34,064 bases of DNA, from NCBI GenBank assembly GCA_938005675.1, contig CALKXH010000124.1:1-34064 (forward strand). The letters run 5' to 3'. Below the pieces are notes generated by a model. That model did not search any database. It worked only from the letters and a program-made list of their open reading frames with translations, and had not been told where the DNA came from. A program made the translations under genes and the position numbers. The stretch comes from an uncultured Anaerolineae bacterium (lineage in GTDB: Bacteria; Chloroflexota; Anaerolineae; Aggregatilineales; UBA2796). Every line of letters begins with the position of its first letter. Position 1 is the first letter of the stretch. Positions 17,857 through 27,058 of this stretch are shown here, one piece after another.

Positions 17857-17860
<4 letters not shown>
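17135..17860 (+). CDS. PIG-L/LmbE-family deacetylase
   Basis: The protein has 241 residues. Zinc-binding motifs are visible: AHPDDPEFFSGG near residues 20-31 (the AHPDDE-type site, with Pro replacing the usual Glu position before Glu) and NHPDHRAIGEAA, which supplies the third His. The family removes acetyl groups from N-acetylglucosaminyl lipids, thiol precursors (MshB/BshB) or other GlcNAc compounds. No partner glycosyltransferase or ligase for thiol synthesis is nearby, so the substrate is open. It probably shares a transcript with ricT. Its TAG stop overlaps the cimA stop on the opposite strand as CTAG. Confidence 0.87.
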
Positions 17861-19437
<1,577 letters not shown>

Positions 19438-19478: not shown

Positions 19479-20042
19479 TTATTCCACGAGATCGGCGAAG
19501 AGCGTGCGCAGCGGCAAGCGAAAGCTCGGCAGGACGTCGCCGCCTTCCAAAGCGTCATCGACTGTCAAGCTCTGGACGCCCGCTGGGCTGTAGCAATCGA
19601 CTGTCTGCAGCTCAGGGTAGACGATCCAGACCATGCGCACGCCGCAGTTCAGGTAATCTTGAACTCTGTGGCGCATTTCAAGGGCGCTATCGCTTGGCGA
19701 GACGATCTCGACCGCCAAGTCAGGCGCGAGCGGCAGATATTTCTGCGGGATCGGCTTGGGCATTCGCGCCTTGCTGATGAAGGCAACGTCTGGGATGCGC
19801 ACCACATCGGGATTGCGCGCCAAGATGAAAGCGCCGCTAGCGCCCGTCACGCAGCCCAGACGATTGTCCTCAACAAAATTTGCCAGATGGCGCGCTGTAC
19901 GCGCCTCAAGCATGCCGCGCAAGCCGCCCGTGCCGCTCACCACCTCGATCAACGCCCCTTTCACCAGCTCGTAGCGCACCCCTTCAGAGGGCGGCAACGC
20001 CCATAGGTCTTCAGCCGTCATCAGCTTGGCTTGAACGTCCAT
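19479..20042 (-). CDS. Uma2-family PD-(D/E)XK nuclease-like protein (second copy)
   Basis: The 187-residue protein carries the Uma2 fold, a restriction-endonuclease-like domain common in Cyanobacteria and Chloroflexota. Conserved blocks are MTAEDLWALPPSEGVRYELVKG (residues 8-29; the Glu is a core residue), RIPDVAFIS, PDLAVEIVSPSD with Asp and Glu of the nuclease motif, and MVWIVYPELQTVDCY. The biological role of the family is unknown. It is embedded between leuA (54 bp) and cimA (41 bp) with AAGGAG eight bases before the ATG, so it is co-expressed with BCAA enzymes. It is only distantly similar to the other Uma2 gene in this operon. Confidence 0.87.
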   Translation of the reverse strand: MDVQAKLMTAEDLWALPPSEGVRYELVKGALIEVVSGTGGLRGMLEARTARHLANFVEDNRLGCVTGASGAFILARNPDVVRIPDVAFISKARMPKPIPQKYLPLAPDLAVEIVSPSDSALEMRHRVQDYLNCGVRMVWIVYPELQTVDCYSPAGVQSLTVDDALEGGDVLPSFRLPLRTLFADLVE

Positions 20043-20096: not shown

Positions 20097-21707
<1,611 letters not shown>

Positions 21708-21733: not shown

Positions 21734-22756
21734 TCAGGCACTTGGATCGTAATCCTGCAGGCGTTTAGGCTTGAGGAACTGCATCATCTCGCGCAGGCGC
21801 GCGCCGACGTCCTCAACGGGGTGGGCACGCTCGGCGCGGCGGCGCGCCAAAAAGTTGGGCAGACCGTTGGCGTTCTCCTCGATCCACTGTTCGGCGAACG
21901 AGCCATCTCGAATCTCGGCGAGAATCTGGCGCATGGCGCGGCGCGTCTCGTCGGTCACCACGCGGTCGCCGCTCAGATAGCCGCCGTACTCAGCCGTATC
22001 GCTGACTGAATACCACATATAGCTCATGCCGCCTTGATAGAGCAGATCGACGATCAGCTTGAGTTCATGCAGGCACTCAAAGTAGGCGACCTCAGGCTGA
22101 TAGCCCGCCTCGACGAGCGTCTCGAAGGCGGCTTTGATCAGCGCCGTGACGCCGCCGCACAAGATGGTCTGCTCGCCGAATAGATCGGTCTCGGTCTCTT
22201 CGGCGAAGGTGGTCTCCAAGACGCCGGCGCGCGTGCCGCCGATGGCTTTGGCGTAGGCGAGGGCGTTCGCTTTCGCCTTGCCGCTGGCATCTTGCTGCAC
22301 AGCCAGCAAGCACGGGATGCCGACGCCCTCTACAAAGGTCTCGCGCAGGCGATGACCGGGTCCTTTCGGCGCCACCATCGAGACATCCACGCCCTGCGGC
22401 GGCACGATCTGCCCGTAACGGATGTTGAAGCCGTGCGCGAACATGAGCGTATCGCCCGCCTGCAAGTGCGGCGCGATCTCGGCGCGGTAGACGGCGGCTT
22501 GCTTGGTATCCGGGATCAGCAGCATGATGAACTGCGCCCGTTCAGCCGCCTCCGCCACGGGGAGCACCGTCAAGCCCTCCGCCTCCGCTTTCGGGCGCGA
22601 TTTGCTCTCGGCGTGCAAGCCGACCACCACATTCACGCCGCTATCGCGCAGGTTGAGCGCGTGGGCGTGACCTTGACTGCCATAGCCGATGATCGCCACG
22701 GTCTTGCCGTCCAGCAGGCTGAGATCGGCGTCTTGATCGTAGTAAAGCGTAGCCAT
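21734..22756 (-). CDS. ilvC: Ketol-acid reductoisomerase, class I
   Basis: This 340-residue enzyme isomerises and reduces acetolactate or acetohydroxybutyrate to the dihydroxy acids. The Rossmann motif is [19 protein letters not shown], followed by [12 protein letters not shown] and the Mg-binding [12 protein letters not shown] with Glu residues in the knotted C-terminal domain ([15 protein letters not shown]). The length matches class I. The cofactor loop at residues 48-54 reads HAESKSR, whereas NADPH enzymes usually have Arg-x-Gly-Ser at its start, so cofactor preference is uncertain. The spacing is 30 bp from ilvN and 26 bp to leuA. Only a distant AAGGG is seen upstream. Confidence 0.95.
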
Positions 22757-22786: not shown

Positions 22787-23278
22787 TCAAGCCAGTTGTG
22801 GGGCTTGCACGACGTGATTGCCGCGCCCCATCGCCACCACGCCCGTGCGCACTAGCTCGATGATGCCGTGCGGACGGAGCGCCTCGATGAACTGTTCAAC
22901 GCGATCCTCTTCATCGCTCAGATCGAGGATCATCGCGCCGTCTCTGTAGTCGATGATGCGCGCGCCGAACTGGCTGGCAAGGACAGCCACCTCAGCCGAG
23001 GCGCGCACCTTGATCAGCGCTAGATCGCGGCTGACCGATGGCTGCTCAGTGATTTCGTAGACCTGAATCACGTTGACCAGCTTGTAGAGGTTCTTTTGCA
23101 CCTGATCGACGCGCGTCACGTCGCTATCCAGCACGATGGTCATGCGCGAGATGTTGGGGTCTTCGGTGCGCCCGACGGTCAGGCTATCGATGTTGAAGTT
23201 GCGGCGGCGGAATAGGCTGGCGACGCGGTTCAGCACGCCGGGTTCGTTCTCCACCAGTGCCACGAGGGTATGTTTCAT
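22787..23278 (-). CDS. ilvN: Acetolactate synthase small (regulatory) subunit
   Basis: The 163-residue protein matches the usual IlvN/IlvH length. The N-terminal ACT domain reads HTLVALVENEPGVLNRVASL, then FNIDSLTVGRTEDPNISRMTIV; the second half is the ACT-like C-terminal domain that activates the catalytic subunit. Valine binding at the ACT interface would give feedback inhibition. Its ATG overlaps the stop of a Uma2 gene as ATGA, so its translation is probably coupled to that gene rather than directly to ilvB. Such an insertion between ilvB and ilvN is unusual. Confidence 0.95.
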   Translation of the reverse strand: MKHTLVALVENEPGVLNRVASLFRRRNFNIDSLTVGRTEDPNISRMTIVLDSDVTRVDQVQKNLYKLVNVIQVYEITEQPSVSRDLALIKVRASAEVAVLASQFGARIIDYRDGAMILDLSDEEDRVEQFIEALRPHGIIELVRTGVVAMGRGNHVVQAPQLA

Positions 23279-23844
23279 GGTTGTGCCTCCACTCCTTTGA
23301 AAAAGTCGGCAAGGGCGAGACTGAAATCAGGCAGGACTTCCCCGCCTGTGAGCGTGCCTTCAACGGGCACGATTTGCACGCGATTTGGGTCGCTGTAGGC
23401 ATAGACCTTGCGCCGTTCAGGGTAAATGATCCACACGGCGCGAGCGCCCGCGCTGAAGTGTTCCTCGATCTTGCAGAGCACCTCATCGGTCGTCTCGTTG
23501 GCAGAGACGATCTCGATAGCTAGATCGGGCGCGCCGACGAAGTACTCATTCAGATTGCGATCCACCAGGCGCGCCGCCGCAACGAAGGCAATATCGGGCG
23601 CGCGCAACGTATCAGGCTCGCGCCGCAGCACAAAACCAACGTCGCTAAAAACCTTCCCTAAGCGACGCGGCATCACATGGCTGACCAAGTCAGCCACCAG
23701 CAGCGCTTGCAACAAACCGTGAATCGGCTTTGAGCGGCTCACTTCGATCAAAACGCCTTTCACCAGTTCGTAGCGCTTGCCATCATCAGGTAAGTTTGCG
23801 AATGCCTCAACAGTCAGTGGGCGCGTCTGCGATTGCGTAGTCAT
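23275..23844 (-). CDS. Uma2-family PD-(D/E)XK nuclease-like protein (first copy)
   Basis: This is a 189-residue Uma2 protein. Blocks seen are LTVEAFANLPDDGKRYELVKG (10-30), APDIAFVAA, PDLAIEIVSANE (nuclease-type Asp and Glu) and AVWIIYPERRKVYAY. Active-site residues look intact, but the family's substrate is not established. The start has GAGG six bases upstream. It lies 54 bp after ilvB and overlaps ilvN by 4 bp, so its translation controls the ilvN start. The ilvB-Uma2 gap contains an 8-bp hairpin (23862-23869 with 23881-23888). Similarity to the second Uma2 of the operon is low, arguing against a recent duplication. Confidence 0.87.
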   Translation of the reverse strand: MTTQSQTRPLTVEAFANLPDDGKRYELVKGVLIEVSRSKPIHGLLQALLVADLVSHVMPRRLGKVFSDVGFVLRREPDTLRAPDIAFVAAARLVDRNLNEYFVGAPDLAIEIVSANETTDEVLCKIEEHFSAGARAVWIIYPERRKVYAYSDPNRVQIVPVEGTLTGGEVLPDFSLALADFFKGVEAQP

Positions 23845-23898: not shown

Positions 23899-25626
23899 TT
23901 AGTGATTCTCCGACCAGTCGGGCAGGTTGCGCGGCGGCGCTGGACGGCGGATCATCTTATCCAGGTCAGCGCCGGCTGGCACCATCGGATAGACGATGTC
24001 CTCTTTTTCGACCTGAAACTCGACGACGGTCGGCGCGTTGATGCTGTGCGCCCACGCCACTGTCTCAGGGATTTCGGCGCGCGTGCGCACGCGGCGCGCC
24101 GCGATGCCGTACGCCTCCGCCAACTTGACGAAGTCGGGGTTGTGCATGGGCGTGGCGTTGTAGCGCTCGCCATGGAAGAACTCCTGCCATTGGCGCACCA
24201 TGCCCAGATAGGCGTTGTTGATGATGGCGACGTTCACATTGACGTTCTCCTGAGCCGCCGTCGCCAGCTCGCACAGGGTCATCTGGAAGCCGCCATCGCC
24301 CACAATCGCCCAGACGGTCTCCTGAGGCGCGCCCAGCTTGACGCCAATCGCCGCTGGGAAGCCGAAGCCCATCGTGCCGAGCCCGCCGCTGGTGATCAAG
24401 GTGCGCGGGCGCTGATTCAGGTAGTATTGCGCCGTCCACATCTGGTGCTGACCGACATCGGTGACCACGATGGCGTCGCCGTTGGTGGCTGCCCACAGGT
24501 CGTGGATGGCGTGCGCGGCGTAGAGCTTATCGCTCGGAGCGACGTGATGGACGATGTCGCGCTCGTCGGTCTCCTCCTGCCAGTTGCGAATCTCGCCCAG
24601 CCACGCGGCGTGGCTCAGGCTCGGCACGTGCGGCAGGAGTTGCTCCAGCACGGTGCGCAGGTCGCCAGCGATGCCGACGTCGACCTTGACGTTCTTGTTC
24701 AGCTCGCTGGCGTCGATATCGATGTGAATCTTGCGCGAATTGGGCGAGTAGGTGCGCAAATTGCCCGTGACGCGATCGTCGAAGCGCATTCCGAAGGCGA
24801 GCAGCAGGTCGGCGCTTTGAATCGCTTGATTGACGGCTGCCGCGCCGTGCATTCCCATCATGCCCAAGCACAGCGGATGCGCCTCTGGCATGGCGCCCTT
24901 GCCCAGGAGCGTCAGCGCGACGGGAATCTGCGCCCGTTCAGCCAGCTCCAGCAGTTGGCGCTCAGCGCCGCTCATCATCACGCCGTGACCAGCTAGGATC
25001 AGCGGGCGCTCGGCGCTCTTGATCAGGGCGAGGGCGCGCTCGATCTGATCGGGCGTGGCAGCTGAGGGCGGCACGTAGCCGGGCAGGCGCAGCGGCTCGG
25101 TTGGATAGGTGAAGTCGAGCTTCTGATTTTGAGCGTCTTTGGTGATATCGACCAGAACCGGTCCCGGGCGCCCTGTGCGCGCGATGTGAAAAGCTTTGCG
25201 CAGGGCGGGCGCGATCTGCTTGACGTTGGTGACGAGGAAGTTGTGCTTGGTGATCGGCAAGGTGATGCCAGTGATATCCGTCTCTTGGAAGGCATCCGAG
25301 CCGAGCACAGTGCTTGGCACCTGCCCGGTGATGCAGACCAGCGGCACGGAGTCCATCATGGCGGTGGCGATGCCGGTGACCATGTTGGTGGCGCCGGGTC
25401 CGCTGGTTGCCATTGCCACGCCGACCTTGCCGGTGATGCGTGCGTAGCCATCCGCCATGTGGGTGGCGCCCTGCTCGTGGCGCACAAGGACGTGCCGCAC
25501 CCGATCTTGATATTTGCTGAGCGCGTCGTAAGTGGGCAGGATAGCTCCGCCCGGATAGCCGAAGACGATCTCGACGCCCTCGCGCAGCAGGCATTCCCAG
25601 ATGATTTCTGCGCCCGTCAGTTCCAT
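23899..25626 (-). CDS. ilvB: Acetolactate synthase large (catalytic) subunit
   Basis: This 575-residue thiamine-diphosphate enzyme joins two pyruvates to acetolactate, or pyruvate and 2-oxobutanoate to acetohydroxybutyrate. The catalytic Glu51 lies in VRHEQGATHMADGYAR, and VFGYPGGAILPTYDAL precedes it. The central domain carries the FAD-associated LLAFGMRFDDRVTG, and the C-terminal ThDP/Mg motif reads GDGGFQMTLCELATA through NNAYLGMVRQWQ. The length is standard. It is the first large gene after the attenuator and the 62-residue acidic ORF, with an imperfect AAGGCGG before the ATG. It pairs with IlvN, which is encoded after an inserted Uma2 gene. Confidence 0.95.
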   Translation of the reverse strand: MELTGAEIIWECLLREGVEIVFGYPGGAILPTYDALSKYQDRVRHVLVRHEQGATHMADGYARITGKVGVAMATSGPGATNMVTGIATAMMDSVPLVCITGQVPSTVLGSDAFQETDITGITLPITKHNFLVTNVKQIAPALRKAFHIARTGRPGPVLVDITKDAQNQKLDFTYPTEPLRLPGYVPPSAATPDQIERALALIKSAERPLILAGHGVMMSGAERQLLELAERAQIPVALTLLGKGAMPEAHPLCLGMMGMHGAAAVNQAIQSADLLLAFGMRFDDRVTGNLRTYSPNSRKIHIDIDASELNKNVKVDVGIAGDLRTVLEQLLPHVPSLSHAAWLGEIRNWQEETDERDIVHHVAPSDKLYAAHAIHDLWAATNGDAIVVTDVGQHQMWTAQYYLNQRPRTLITSGGLGTMGFGFPAAIGVKLGAPQETVWAIVGDGGFQMTLCELATAAQENVNVNVAIINNAYLGMVRQWQEFFHGERYNATPMHNPDFVKLAEAYGIAARRVRTRAEIPETVAWAHSINAPTVVEFQVEKEDIVYPMVPAGADLDKMIRRPAPPRNLPDWSENH

Positions 25627-25677
25627 AGAAGTCCGCCTTTGTTACAGATTTTCCCCACTAGCCGAAAAAACGCGCCT

Positions 25678-25866
25678 TCAGCCCTCAAAGATGGCGGAAA
25701 GCGCGTCGTGCGTCGGACTCTCATCCTCAGCCGATTGCCACAGGGCTGCCGCTTGTGACTCGGATGCTTCAGCCTCAGCTTCCTCTTGGAACAGCTCAGT
25801 CCACGGGCTGGTGTGGCTGTGCATCTCCAGCAGTGCCTCATCTTGGGGCATATCAGGATACAACAT
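25678..25866 (-). CDS. Very acidic small protein heading the BCAA operon
   Basis: The frame encodes 62 residues with 15 Asp/Glu and no Lys or Arg, which is unlike random GC-rich translation and gives a very low isoelectric point. No known domain is recognised; it begins MLYPDMPQDEALLEM and has an EEAEAEASES run, so it is probably disordered or helical. AAGGAG lies ten bases before the ATG. It sits between the attenuator terminator (25911-25943) and ilvB (51 bp further), so it should be made only when the terminator is read through. It could be a regulatory or partner protein of acetolactate synthase, or a translated spacer ORF. Confidence 0.55.
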   Translation of the reverse strand: MLYPDMPQDEALLEMHSHTSPWTELFQEEAEAEASESQAAALWQSAEDESPTHDALSAIFEG

Positions 25867-25910: not shown

Positions 25911-25943
25911 CAAAAAAACCGCCCGTCGGTCGGGCGGCTTTTT
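25911..25943 (-). terminator. Intrinsic terminator of the BCAA leader (attenuator)
   Basis: On the minus strand CCGCCCG-ACCGA-CGGGCGG forms a 7-bp GC stem, extended by one G-U pair and A-U pairs, followed by seven U. The same hairpin also has a short U-tract on the plus strand, but no plus-strand gene ends here. It lies 18 bases after the leader ORF stop and upstream of all operon genes. Confidence 0.8.
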
Positions 25944-25961
25944 GCTCAAACTAGCGAATGT

Positions 25962-26123
25962 TCAGGAGGCTCTCCCATACACGCGCCAAGCAGCCCAACC
26001 GTTCAGCTCGCAGCGAATAATCGCTACGAGGTCGGTAAGGTTGATAAGGCTAAGCGCAGTGCGTAGGCTGACCGTTGACATAAGACGTTCTTGTGCTTCC
26101 TTGAACAATCTGGCTTTAAGCAT
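25962..26123 (-). CDS. BCAA-rich leader peptide of the ilv-leu operon
   Basis: The leader ORF has 53 codons from an ATG at 26123-26121, with CAGGT about five bases upstream. Residues 24-36 contain eight Leu/Ile/Val out of 13 (codons at 26054-26016), the density expected of a regulatory leader peptide. The end (GWAAWRVYGRAS) encodes antiterminator segment 2. A ribosome stalled near codons 32-36 would cover the segment-1 region and leave segment 2 free; one that reaches the stop would let 1:2 and the terminator form. A second ATG at codon 15 (26081) is an alternative start. No known protein domain is seen, and no T-box consensus occurs in the leader. Confidence 0.65.
   Translation of the reverse strand: MLKARLFKEAQERLMSTVSLRTALSLINLTDLVAIIRCELNGWAAWRVYGRAS
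25988..26051 (-). promoter_or_regulatory. Antiterminator and anti-antiterminator segments of the leader
   Basis: In the minus-strand RNA, segment 2 (26001-25988) can pair with the terminator 5' arm and loop (25940-25927) over 14 positions: 12 Watson-Crick, one G-U and one C-U mismatch. Forming this helix excludes the terminator. Segment 1 (26051-26039, codons 25-29 of the leader ORF) can pair with 26000-25992 of segment 2: five plus four base pairs around a 4-nt bulge. An AGCGA/TCGCT hairpin (26012-26025) sits between. This gives the alternative 1:2, 2:3 and 3:4 structures expected of a ribosome-controlled attenuator. The pairing was found by eye; folding energies were not computed. Confidence 0.7.
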
Positions 26124-26208
26124 AGGCGACCTGCCCTCAGCGCGCAACTAGCATTTTGCACAAGGGAAAACGGCTTTTTTGAGGCAAAATGACCAAAGCG
26201 CCCCCACA
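26124..26208 (-). other. Upstream part of the BCAA leader; promoter not resolved
   Basis: The BCAA operon promoter must lie here or slightly further upstream, but no minus-strand -35/-10 pair is convincing. An AT-rich patch at 26151-26190 with TTGCCT and CAAAAT on the minus strand is the best region, with poor spacing. The divergent promoter of the DUF4231 gene adjoins it. Confidence 0.3.
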
Positions 26209-26284: not shown

Positions 26285-27058
26285 ATGCCGATGGCGAATC
26301 CCGATGCCCCTGAAGCGCCCCGCCCGCGTTCGCAGCAGAAAGGCGATCCGCGCCGCCGATGGCCCGCTTGGGCGAAGCAGCTGCCGCACTTCAAGCTGCC
26401 GCCCGCCGACCCAAACTTCTCCCTCGTGCCAAAGCAAGAAGCTCTCGATCTGCTGCGCCCCGATCCCAGCAAGGTCACCGATAGCACGAGCGCCTCTGCC
26501 TATCCGCCTTTCCGCGCCACCGATAAAACAATCCGCGCCATCGAGAGCGATCTCGACCTGCTGGAGCGCGAAGTGGTCAAGCTTTTCCGCGAGCGCGACC
26601 TTGAGGCGAAATTGCAACAGAATCGCTATCGTTTGTATCAAATCAGCTTCATCGCGCTCTCGGCTGTAGCGACCGCCATCGGCTCGCTCTTGGCGTTGGC
26701 ACTGACTCAGCAACCGCCCGTCTGGGTGCCCGTGCTGGGCTTCGCCGAGACCGTCGTGGCGCTCTTGGCGACTTTTCTGGCTCAGATCAGCGGGCGCGAG
26801 TCGCCCTTCATGCTGTGGCTGGAGAATCGACGGGCGGCGGAGAGTCTGCGCCGCGAGTATTTCCGTTACCTCGTGCGCCTGCCGCCTTACGATAACGAGT
26901 CGATGCCCCCTTATGAGCGCCGCTTATTGCTGGCGGAGCGCGCCGCGCTGATCAACCGCGGCAGCTCGCCCGATGATCGCGCCACCACCACGCTGAGTGG
27001 TGCATTGACCGCCGAGAGCGTCCCCACTCGCCCGCAAGGAGGTAGCAGCAATGGATGA
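26285..27058 (+). CDS. DUF4231/SLATT-like 2-TM membrane protein, first of pair
   Basis: The protein has 257 residues. Residues 1-80 are polar and Pro-rich; 80-112 form a charged helix (ESDLDLLEREVVKLFRERD); membrane helices lie at about 119-140 and 148-167; a cytoplasmic helix with NRRAAESLRREYFRY (181-195) and LPPYDN follows. This layout, with the R-x-x-A-E-x-L-x-x-E-x-x-x-Y signature after TM2, fits DUF4231 of the SLATT superfamily. Some members are proposed pore-forming effectors of nucleotide-signal defence systems. No sensor or nucleotide cyclase is nearby. Its end overlaps the second gene by 8 bp. AAAGGA lies four bases before this ATG and ten before the next in-frame ATG (26291), so either may be used. 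Confidence 0.7.
   Translation: MPMANPDAPEAPRPRSQQKGDPRRRWPAWAKQLPHFKLPPADPNFSLVPKQEALDLLRPDPSKVTDSTSASAYPPFRATDKTIRAIESDLDLLEREVVKLFRERDLEAKLQQNRYRLYQISFIALSAVATAIGSLLALALTQQPPVWVPVLGFAETVVALLATFLAQISGRESPFMLWLENRRAAESLRREYFRYLVRLPPYDNESMPPYERRLLLAERAALINRGSSPDDRATTTLSGALTAESVPTRPQGGSSNG

Follow-up and report, generated by a model that had tools for sequence, protein, structure and literature searches.

What decides whether the genes for leucine, isoleucine and valine synthesis are transcribed at this locus? The window (the whole stretch of DNA analysed, 34,064 nucleotides) carries on its minus strand an operon for these branched-chain amino acids (BCAA), and in front of it lies a predicted RNA switch that probably permits expression only if a ribosome stalls for want of the same amino acids. 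We read this element as a predicted ribosome-mediated transcription attenuator of the BCAA operon, with a probability of roughly 0.92. The reading is built on computation: on the parts of the element and how they are conserved, on antiterminator covariation in family f2, on the distance from the regulatory codons to the antiterminator, and on the BCAA genes downstream. The operon, into which two Uma2-type genes have been inserted according to Pfam, has the order ilvB-ilvN-ilvC-leuA followed by a second LeuA-type gene:

23899 to 25626, minus strand: ilvB, acetolactate synthase large subunit (Pfam TPP_enzyme N/M/C).
22787 to 23278, minus strand: ilvN, acetolactate synthase small subunit (Pfam ACT_AHAS_ss, ALS_ss_C).
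21734 to 22756, minus strand: ilvC, ketol-acid reductoisomerase (Pfam KARI_N, KARI_C).
20097 to 21707, minus strand: leuA, 2-isopropylmalate synthase (Pfam HMGL-like and LeuA_dimer).
17857 to 19437, minus strand: cimA-like gene, putative citramalate synthase or second LeuA-type enzyme (Pfam HMGL-like and LeuA_dimer).

The inserted genes belong to the Uma2 family of putative endonucleases; one (23275-23844, minus strand) lies between ilvB and ilvN, and the other (19479-20042, minus strand) between leuA and the cimA-like gene. The initial annotation had guessed a Chloroflexota genome, and this agrees with the 16S gene of the source genome (L298, 109-1604), which contains the exact targets of both Chloroflexi FISH probes, CFX1223 and GNSB941 (probe sequences from PMC7387413). 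Phylum assignment by an IlvB tree was not decisive, as the IlvB clade of the order adjoins IlvB of Fidelibacterota (Marinimicrobia), apart from most named Chloroflexota, and the 16S probe sites were used instead. This grouping of IlvB sequences suggests that ilvB may have been transferred between lineages. Two tandem ilvB genes are found in one relative of family f3 (G044:C158:4553-8623).

The frame 26123-25962 is open and encodes MLKARLFKEAQERLMSTVSLRTALSLINLTDLVAIIRCELNGWAAWRVYGRAS up to its stop codon, and recomputation of the minus strand returned the leader rich in Leu, Ile and Val described earlier, with 8 such residues in 13. The terminator with seven U after the leader stop was found at 25941-25912. 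The 14-position antiterminator was also recomputed as first proposed: segment 2 CGGUUGGGCUGCUU (26001-25988) and segment 3 AAGCCGCCCGACCG (25940-25927) form 12 Watson-Crick pairs, one G-U pair and one mismatch, and their duplex in the window has an energy of -24.1 kcal/mol. The parts of the element are listed below, with the leader ORF at its revised length.

25962 to 26081, minus strand: leader ORF of 39 codons, MSTVSLRTALSLINLTDLVAIIRCELNGWAAWRVYGRAS and stop; frame and start kept in congeners.
26016 to 26054, minus strand: regulatory codons CUU AGC CUU AUC AAC CUU ACC GAC CUC GUA GCG AUU AUU.
26039 to 26051, minus strand: segment 1 (AGCC..AACC), able to pair with segment 2 in the minimum free energy (MFE) fold.
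26007 to 26030, minus strand: protector hairpin CUCGUAGCG-AUUAUU-CGCUGCGAG, which holds the last BCAA codons.
25988 to 26001, minus strand: segment 2, the 5' strand of the antiterminator, within the leader ORF; kept in the genus.
25962 to 25964, minus strand: UGA stop codon of the leader, within the spacer that separates segment 2 from segment 3.
25927 to 25940, minus strand: segment 3, both the 5' arm of the terminator and the 3' strand of the antiterminator.
25912 to 25941, minus strand: intrinsic terminator GCCGCCCG..CGGGCGG with U7; conserved.

The leader had first been given 53 codons from a start at 26123. An ATG start codon at that position is very unlikely, because it belongs to the conserved -10 element of a predicted promoter and two congeners, G002 and G004, have an interrupted frame upstream of 26081; the leader is therefore placed at 26081-25962. 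No clear Shine-Dalgarno sequence was found at the start 26081. Two features lie upstream of it:

26119 to 26147, minus strand: predicted sigma-70-type promoter; TTG-N20-TANNNT at the homologous place in relatives.
26143 to 26163, minus strand: conserved block TTGTGCA-N3-TGCTAGTTGCG, overlapping the -35 element; near-invariant in 5 congeners.

The predicted promoter consists of a -35 element TTGCGC (26147-26142), a 17-nt spacer and a -10 element TATGCT (26124-26119). It would start transcription at about 26112-26110, some 30 nt before the 39-codon ORF. A consensus scanner left it unflagged because its -35 element is weak; with its constant 17-nt spacer it is kept in all seven family genomes that have the element upstream of ilvB, namely the window, four congeners and two genomes of the sister genus. 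The surroundings of block 26143-26163 are otherwise variable in the congeners, and the block is possibly an operator or an upstream promoter element. A second block near the promoter (TTGTTCA..GCACAA, 26091-26108, minus strand) is also kept in the genus, and the two blocks flanking the promoter may be an operator or a 5' stem.

The protective pairing of segment 1 with segment 2 was proposed initially, and it does appear in the MFE fold, where AGCC and AACC (within 26051-26039) form pairs with segment 2 that enclose the hairpin 26030-26007. The pairing is weaker than first stated. Across the genus, 95% and 85% (AACC/GGUU) of cells are paired in the segment 1 helices, which show no two-sided changes; the value for the protector hairpin is 97.8% in 5 congeners. 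The 1:2 pairing is thus kept in the genus almost without covariation, and in folding it competes only partly.

For 63 attenuators of the order, the best segment 2 was located solely by complementarity to the terminator arm. The resulting 2:3 duplexes average -20.2 kcal/mol (54 distinct), compared with -17.3 kcal/mol for swapped partners, and none of 2000 permutations was as good; with shuffled upstream sequence the mean is -11.8 kcal/mol. Covariation, proposed earlier as a check on the helices, was found for the antiterminator in f2: in 46 sequences outside f1 (44 from f2, one from f3 and one from f8), two-sided changes occur at 6 of 11 antiterminator pairs, a level reached in none of 500 shuffles, and the RNAalifold consensus of this alignment is the antiterminator itself. 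The genus of the window is too uniform for the same check, as segments 2 and 3 hardly vary there. All 63 elements fold into the antiterminator if the RNA ends at segment 3. The MFE of the complete leader is the terminator, even with the upstream sequence removed, and the switch therefore has to be judged co-transcriptionally.

The position of the regulatory codons relative to segment 2 is strongly constrained. Segment 2 positions were set without regard to codons, and still the last pair of adjacent BCAA codons stops 12-17 nt short of that segment in 53 of the 63 elements, in both stop-codon layouts. In the window, the last Ile-Ile pair ends 14 nt before it. The interval of 12-17 nt is close to the downstream reach of a stalled ribosome, counted from its A site. 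A wider sample of 28 attenuators from the class and from named loci (23 matches to the covariance model R1, described below, less one whose leader could not be scored, together with six attenuators from five named loci reached via IlvB) gave a codon-to-segment-2 distance of 11-20 nt in 23 cases. The Leu codons of the leaders are CUU or CUC in 230 of 253 instances; the operon of the window uses mostly CUG.

The stop codon follows a different pattern. In the trp leader it lies between segments 1 and 2. Unlike trp, the window has segment 2 within the ORF; its stop codon (25964-25962) falls in the spacer that precedes segment 3, 24 nt beyond segment 2, and the trp-type placement is therefore absent. 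Segment 2 likewise lies within the ORF in seven of seven genomes of genera g1 and g2 of family f1, where the ORF ends 34-40 nt after the start of segment 2. Elsewhere in the order, family f2 shows the classical trp-type placement: its stop codon directly adjoins segment 2, and a ribosome at the stop would therefore cover segment 2. The departure from trp had been pointed out from the start; since segment 2 lies inside the ORF in 23 of the 28 sampled attenuators, the layout of the window is the common one in the class sample. When a ribosome footprint at the stop codon was masked in folding, f2 lost the antiterminator; most f1 genomes kept it, with segment 2 free. The replete state in f1 must therefore rest on timing, or on a ribosome sitting between segments 2 and 3.

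Could the element be a plain terminator preceded by a chance ORF? The hairpin would then end another transcript or cap a constitutive leader, and the ORF would have no role. Each piece alone may arise by chance, as seen from the 2-3 of 99 reverse-strand regions that are positive in the scans below. The leader terminator cannot serve the neighbouring upstream gene (26285-27058), which is encoded on the other strand. In 99 homologous upstream regions of the order, a short ORF with at least 7 Leu, Ile or Val in 13 residues followed by a terminator was found 62 times, compared with 2 of 99 on the reverse strand and 0-1 of 99 in shuffles. With longer upstream regions, leader and terminator were found in 74 of the 99 genomes, compared with 3 of 99 on the reverse strand, at either the ilvE or the ilvB operon; in some genomes of the order the operon starts with ilvE, and the leader then precedes ilvE. 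MTLVLSLVTLVLNLVVLIIKDITKGGLTLLGEAG is a typical leader peptide of the sister genus, and MRSNRSNAIIILLLVIVLGIISGL of family f2. In three f1 genomes (G007, G008 and G010), no leader was found in the region examined. Because BCAA codons, antiterminator and the 12-17 nt distance are kept together across the order and the class, we consider the plain terminator a highly improbable explanation. The initial annotation had named conservation of the leader and its pairing as a check, and leader, terminator and antiterminator are indeed kept at the level of genus and family, in most of the order and in many families of the class. These comparative tests support the reading of the element as a ribosome-mediated attenuator.

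The reach beyond the order was assessed with R1, a gene-blind covariance model built from the 46 mostly f2 sequences used for covariation. Among 249 genomes of the class, 69 had R1 matches (E <= 0.01), as did 22 of 301 genomes in a phylum sample (E <= 0.001); both are lower bounds, as R1 missed the window's own copy, and they should be read with the caveats that R1 E-values are rough, many genomes are drafts and the sequences are related. In 41 of 44 checked loci, ilvB, ilvD or ilvE lies directly downstream. This count combines 25 of 28 loci (including the five named loci found by IlvB) with all 16 of 16 further R1 matches, seven of which belong to other classes. Families f4 and f5 seemed negative near ilvB, and R1 places the attenuator upstream of ilvD there (G013 and G014). 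No attenuator was found at the source genome's own ilvD. Chloroflexi bin_128 (L113) carries two BCAA leader peptides in tandem, 2.1-1.7 kb before ilvB and ahead of ilvD; both come with a terminator and a segment 2/3 pair of their own.

A stalling upstream ORF could also sense something other than the charging of BCAA tRNAs, such as a general slowdown of translation, an antibiotic or a ligand of the nascent chain. Antibiotic-linked ribosome-stalling leaders with hydrophobic peptides exist, and the regulatory stretch here is hydrophobic. The leader peptides are alike only in their richness in BCAA, and Leu, Ile and Val interchange at the same codon in congeners: one leader position reads CUU, AUU, GUC, AUU and AUU across the genus, and despite codon differences all five genus leaders keep 8 BCAA per 13-residue window. 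The downstream genes are, moreover, BCAA enzymes nearly everywhere. We therefore give another signal only a very slight chance.

The remaining alternative is that a tRNA- or metabolite-binding RNA (a T-box, a ppGpp riboswitch or another riboswitch) governs termination and the ORF plays no part in it. In Firmicutes, ilv operons are regulated by RNAs of this sort, and PMC10272879 cites a ppGpp riboswitch at ilvB. No Rfam family, T-box included, reached its gathering score in the window or in 32 related loci; one match to Phe_leader was far below the cut-off and was set aside as chance. What is conserved is codons and pairing rather than a folded core, and there is no room for an aptamer, as only about 30 nt of 5' leader precede the ORF. 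A ligand-binding RNA is thus most improbable here.

We therefore return to ribosome-mediated attenuation and describe how the element would work. Transcription would begin about 30 nt before the 39-codon leader ORF. Under a shortage of charged Leu, Ile or Val tRNA, the ribosome would stall on codons 26054-26016, opening the protector hairpin and ending about 14 nt short of segment 2. The free segment 2 could then pair with segment 3 as it emerges, which would block the terminator and allow read-through into a small ORF and ilvB. If amino acids are plentiful, the ribosome would run over segment 2 and halt at the stop codon in the spacer beyond it. During synthesis of segments 3 and 4 it would thus first cover segment 2 and then occupy the gap between 2 and 3. 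The terminator would form in this replete state, and transcription would end near 25912. We infer the stalling, the termination, the response to amino acids and the action of the replete-state ribosome with this stop position from the arrangement of the parts.

The small ORF named above is the first cistron behind the attenuator, between its terminator and ilvB, and ends in a second hairpin.

25678 to 25866, minus strand: small ORF of 62 aa, MLYPDMPQDE..TSPWTELFQ..PTHDALSAIFEG, with a good Shine-Dalgarno sequence, GAAGGAG.
25665 to 25706, minus strand: second intrinsic terminator (-24.0 kcal/mol), which overlaps the small ORF at its end, stop codon included.

Its motifs SPWTE-x-[YF]Q and PTHDALS-x-I[YF] recur at the equivalent position in 21 of 99 genomes, which belong to three families. 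The small ORF had no match in Pfam or NCBIfam, and in a class-wide HMM search all eight matches fell within this order. Its sequence pattern (SPWTE..PTHDALSxIY) thus points to a candidate family of acidic small proteins before ilvB or ilvE that appears undescribed and restricted to the order. The stop codon of the small ORF falls at the beginning of the 3' arm of the second terminator. A ribosome finishing the small ORF would cover this hairpin, and translation may therefore gate entry into ilvB. Under such two-stage control, ribosomes on the small ORF would open the second terminator (25706-25665), and ilvB would be reached only if the small ORF is translated. The hairpin is kept by compensatory changes in g1 and G005, and its arms change together in most relatives; it has decayed (-9.9 kcal/mol) in G002 (L251), the sole congener with an in-frame stop (TAG) in the small ORF, which suggests that the two changes are linked. 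However, this in-frame stop comes from one draft genome and may be a sequencing error, no strong hairpin was seen in family f2, and the second terminator may merely set the mRNA level of the small ORF. We regard two-stage control as possible but doubtful; it adds to leader attenuation and does not compete with it. A broader proposal, which we advance tentatively and consider rather unlikely, is that Chloroflexota use their own widespread BCAA attenuator. Its antiterminator strand would lie in the 3' part of the leader ORF (often coding for Val-Gly-Arg, GUUGGGAGG), and the ribosome, terminating at a stop codon placed between segments 2 and 3, would be a wedge and not a cover; in this order, a second terminator gated by translation and a new small protein would follow.

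Most descriptions of leader-peptide attenuation come from Proteobacteria, Actinobacteria and some Firmicutes. The window shares with the enteric trp, his, leu, ilvGMEDA and ilvBN leaders a short leader with regulatory codons, an intrinsic terminator, an operon for the cognate amino acid and a mutually exclusive antiterminator that uses the 5' arm of the terminator; the enteric leader sequences are unrelated to that of the window. Actinobacterial ilvB leaders, as far as the accessible parts of PMC1262725, PMC10272879 and PMC11857589 describe them, also place a BCAA-rich leader peptide, a terminator and an antiterminator before ilvB. The Corynebacterium leader, experimentally supported according to the same parts, differs in having 15-17 codons and another hairpin layout, with the ilvB-II motif compared by description only; these parts do not mention Chloroflexi. 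The ilvB-OMG motif is said in the accessible text of PMC10272879 to span 'various bacterial phyla' and, by description only, may overlap the Chloroflexota elements. Terminator analysis of Firmicutes (PMC2965389) revealed the same general mechanism outside Proteobacteria and Actinobacteria, with histidine leaders before hisS/hisZ in bacilli, and the survey text names no Chloroflexi. We found no account of leader-peptide attenuation in Chloroflexota in the open-access literature. The mechanism is of a known kind, and as far as the open literature shows, its host lineage, its breadth and its stop layout appear to be undescribed.

These observations place a predicted BCAA attenuator in many Chloroflexota families, at ilvB, ilvD or ilvE operons. 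Between lineages the stop codon has moved, while the distance from the BCAA codons to segment 2 has stayed at about one ribosome footprint, which amounts to a large natural comparison. In the trp/his model (PMC1183508), basal read-through is set by early release at the stop codon; a longer ORF is expected to alter it by that model, and the effect of the stop codon's position on basal read-through becomes directly testable. Such an attenuator also implies tight coupling of transcription and translation in Chloroflexota.
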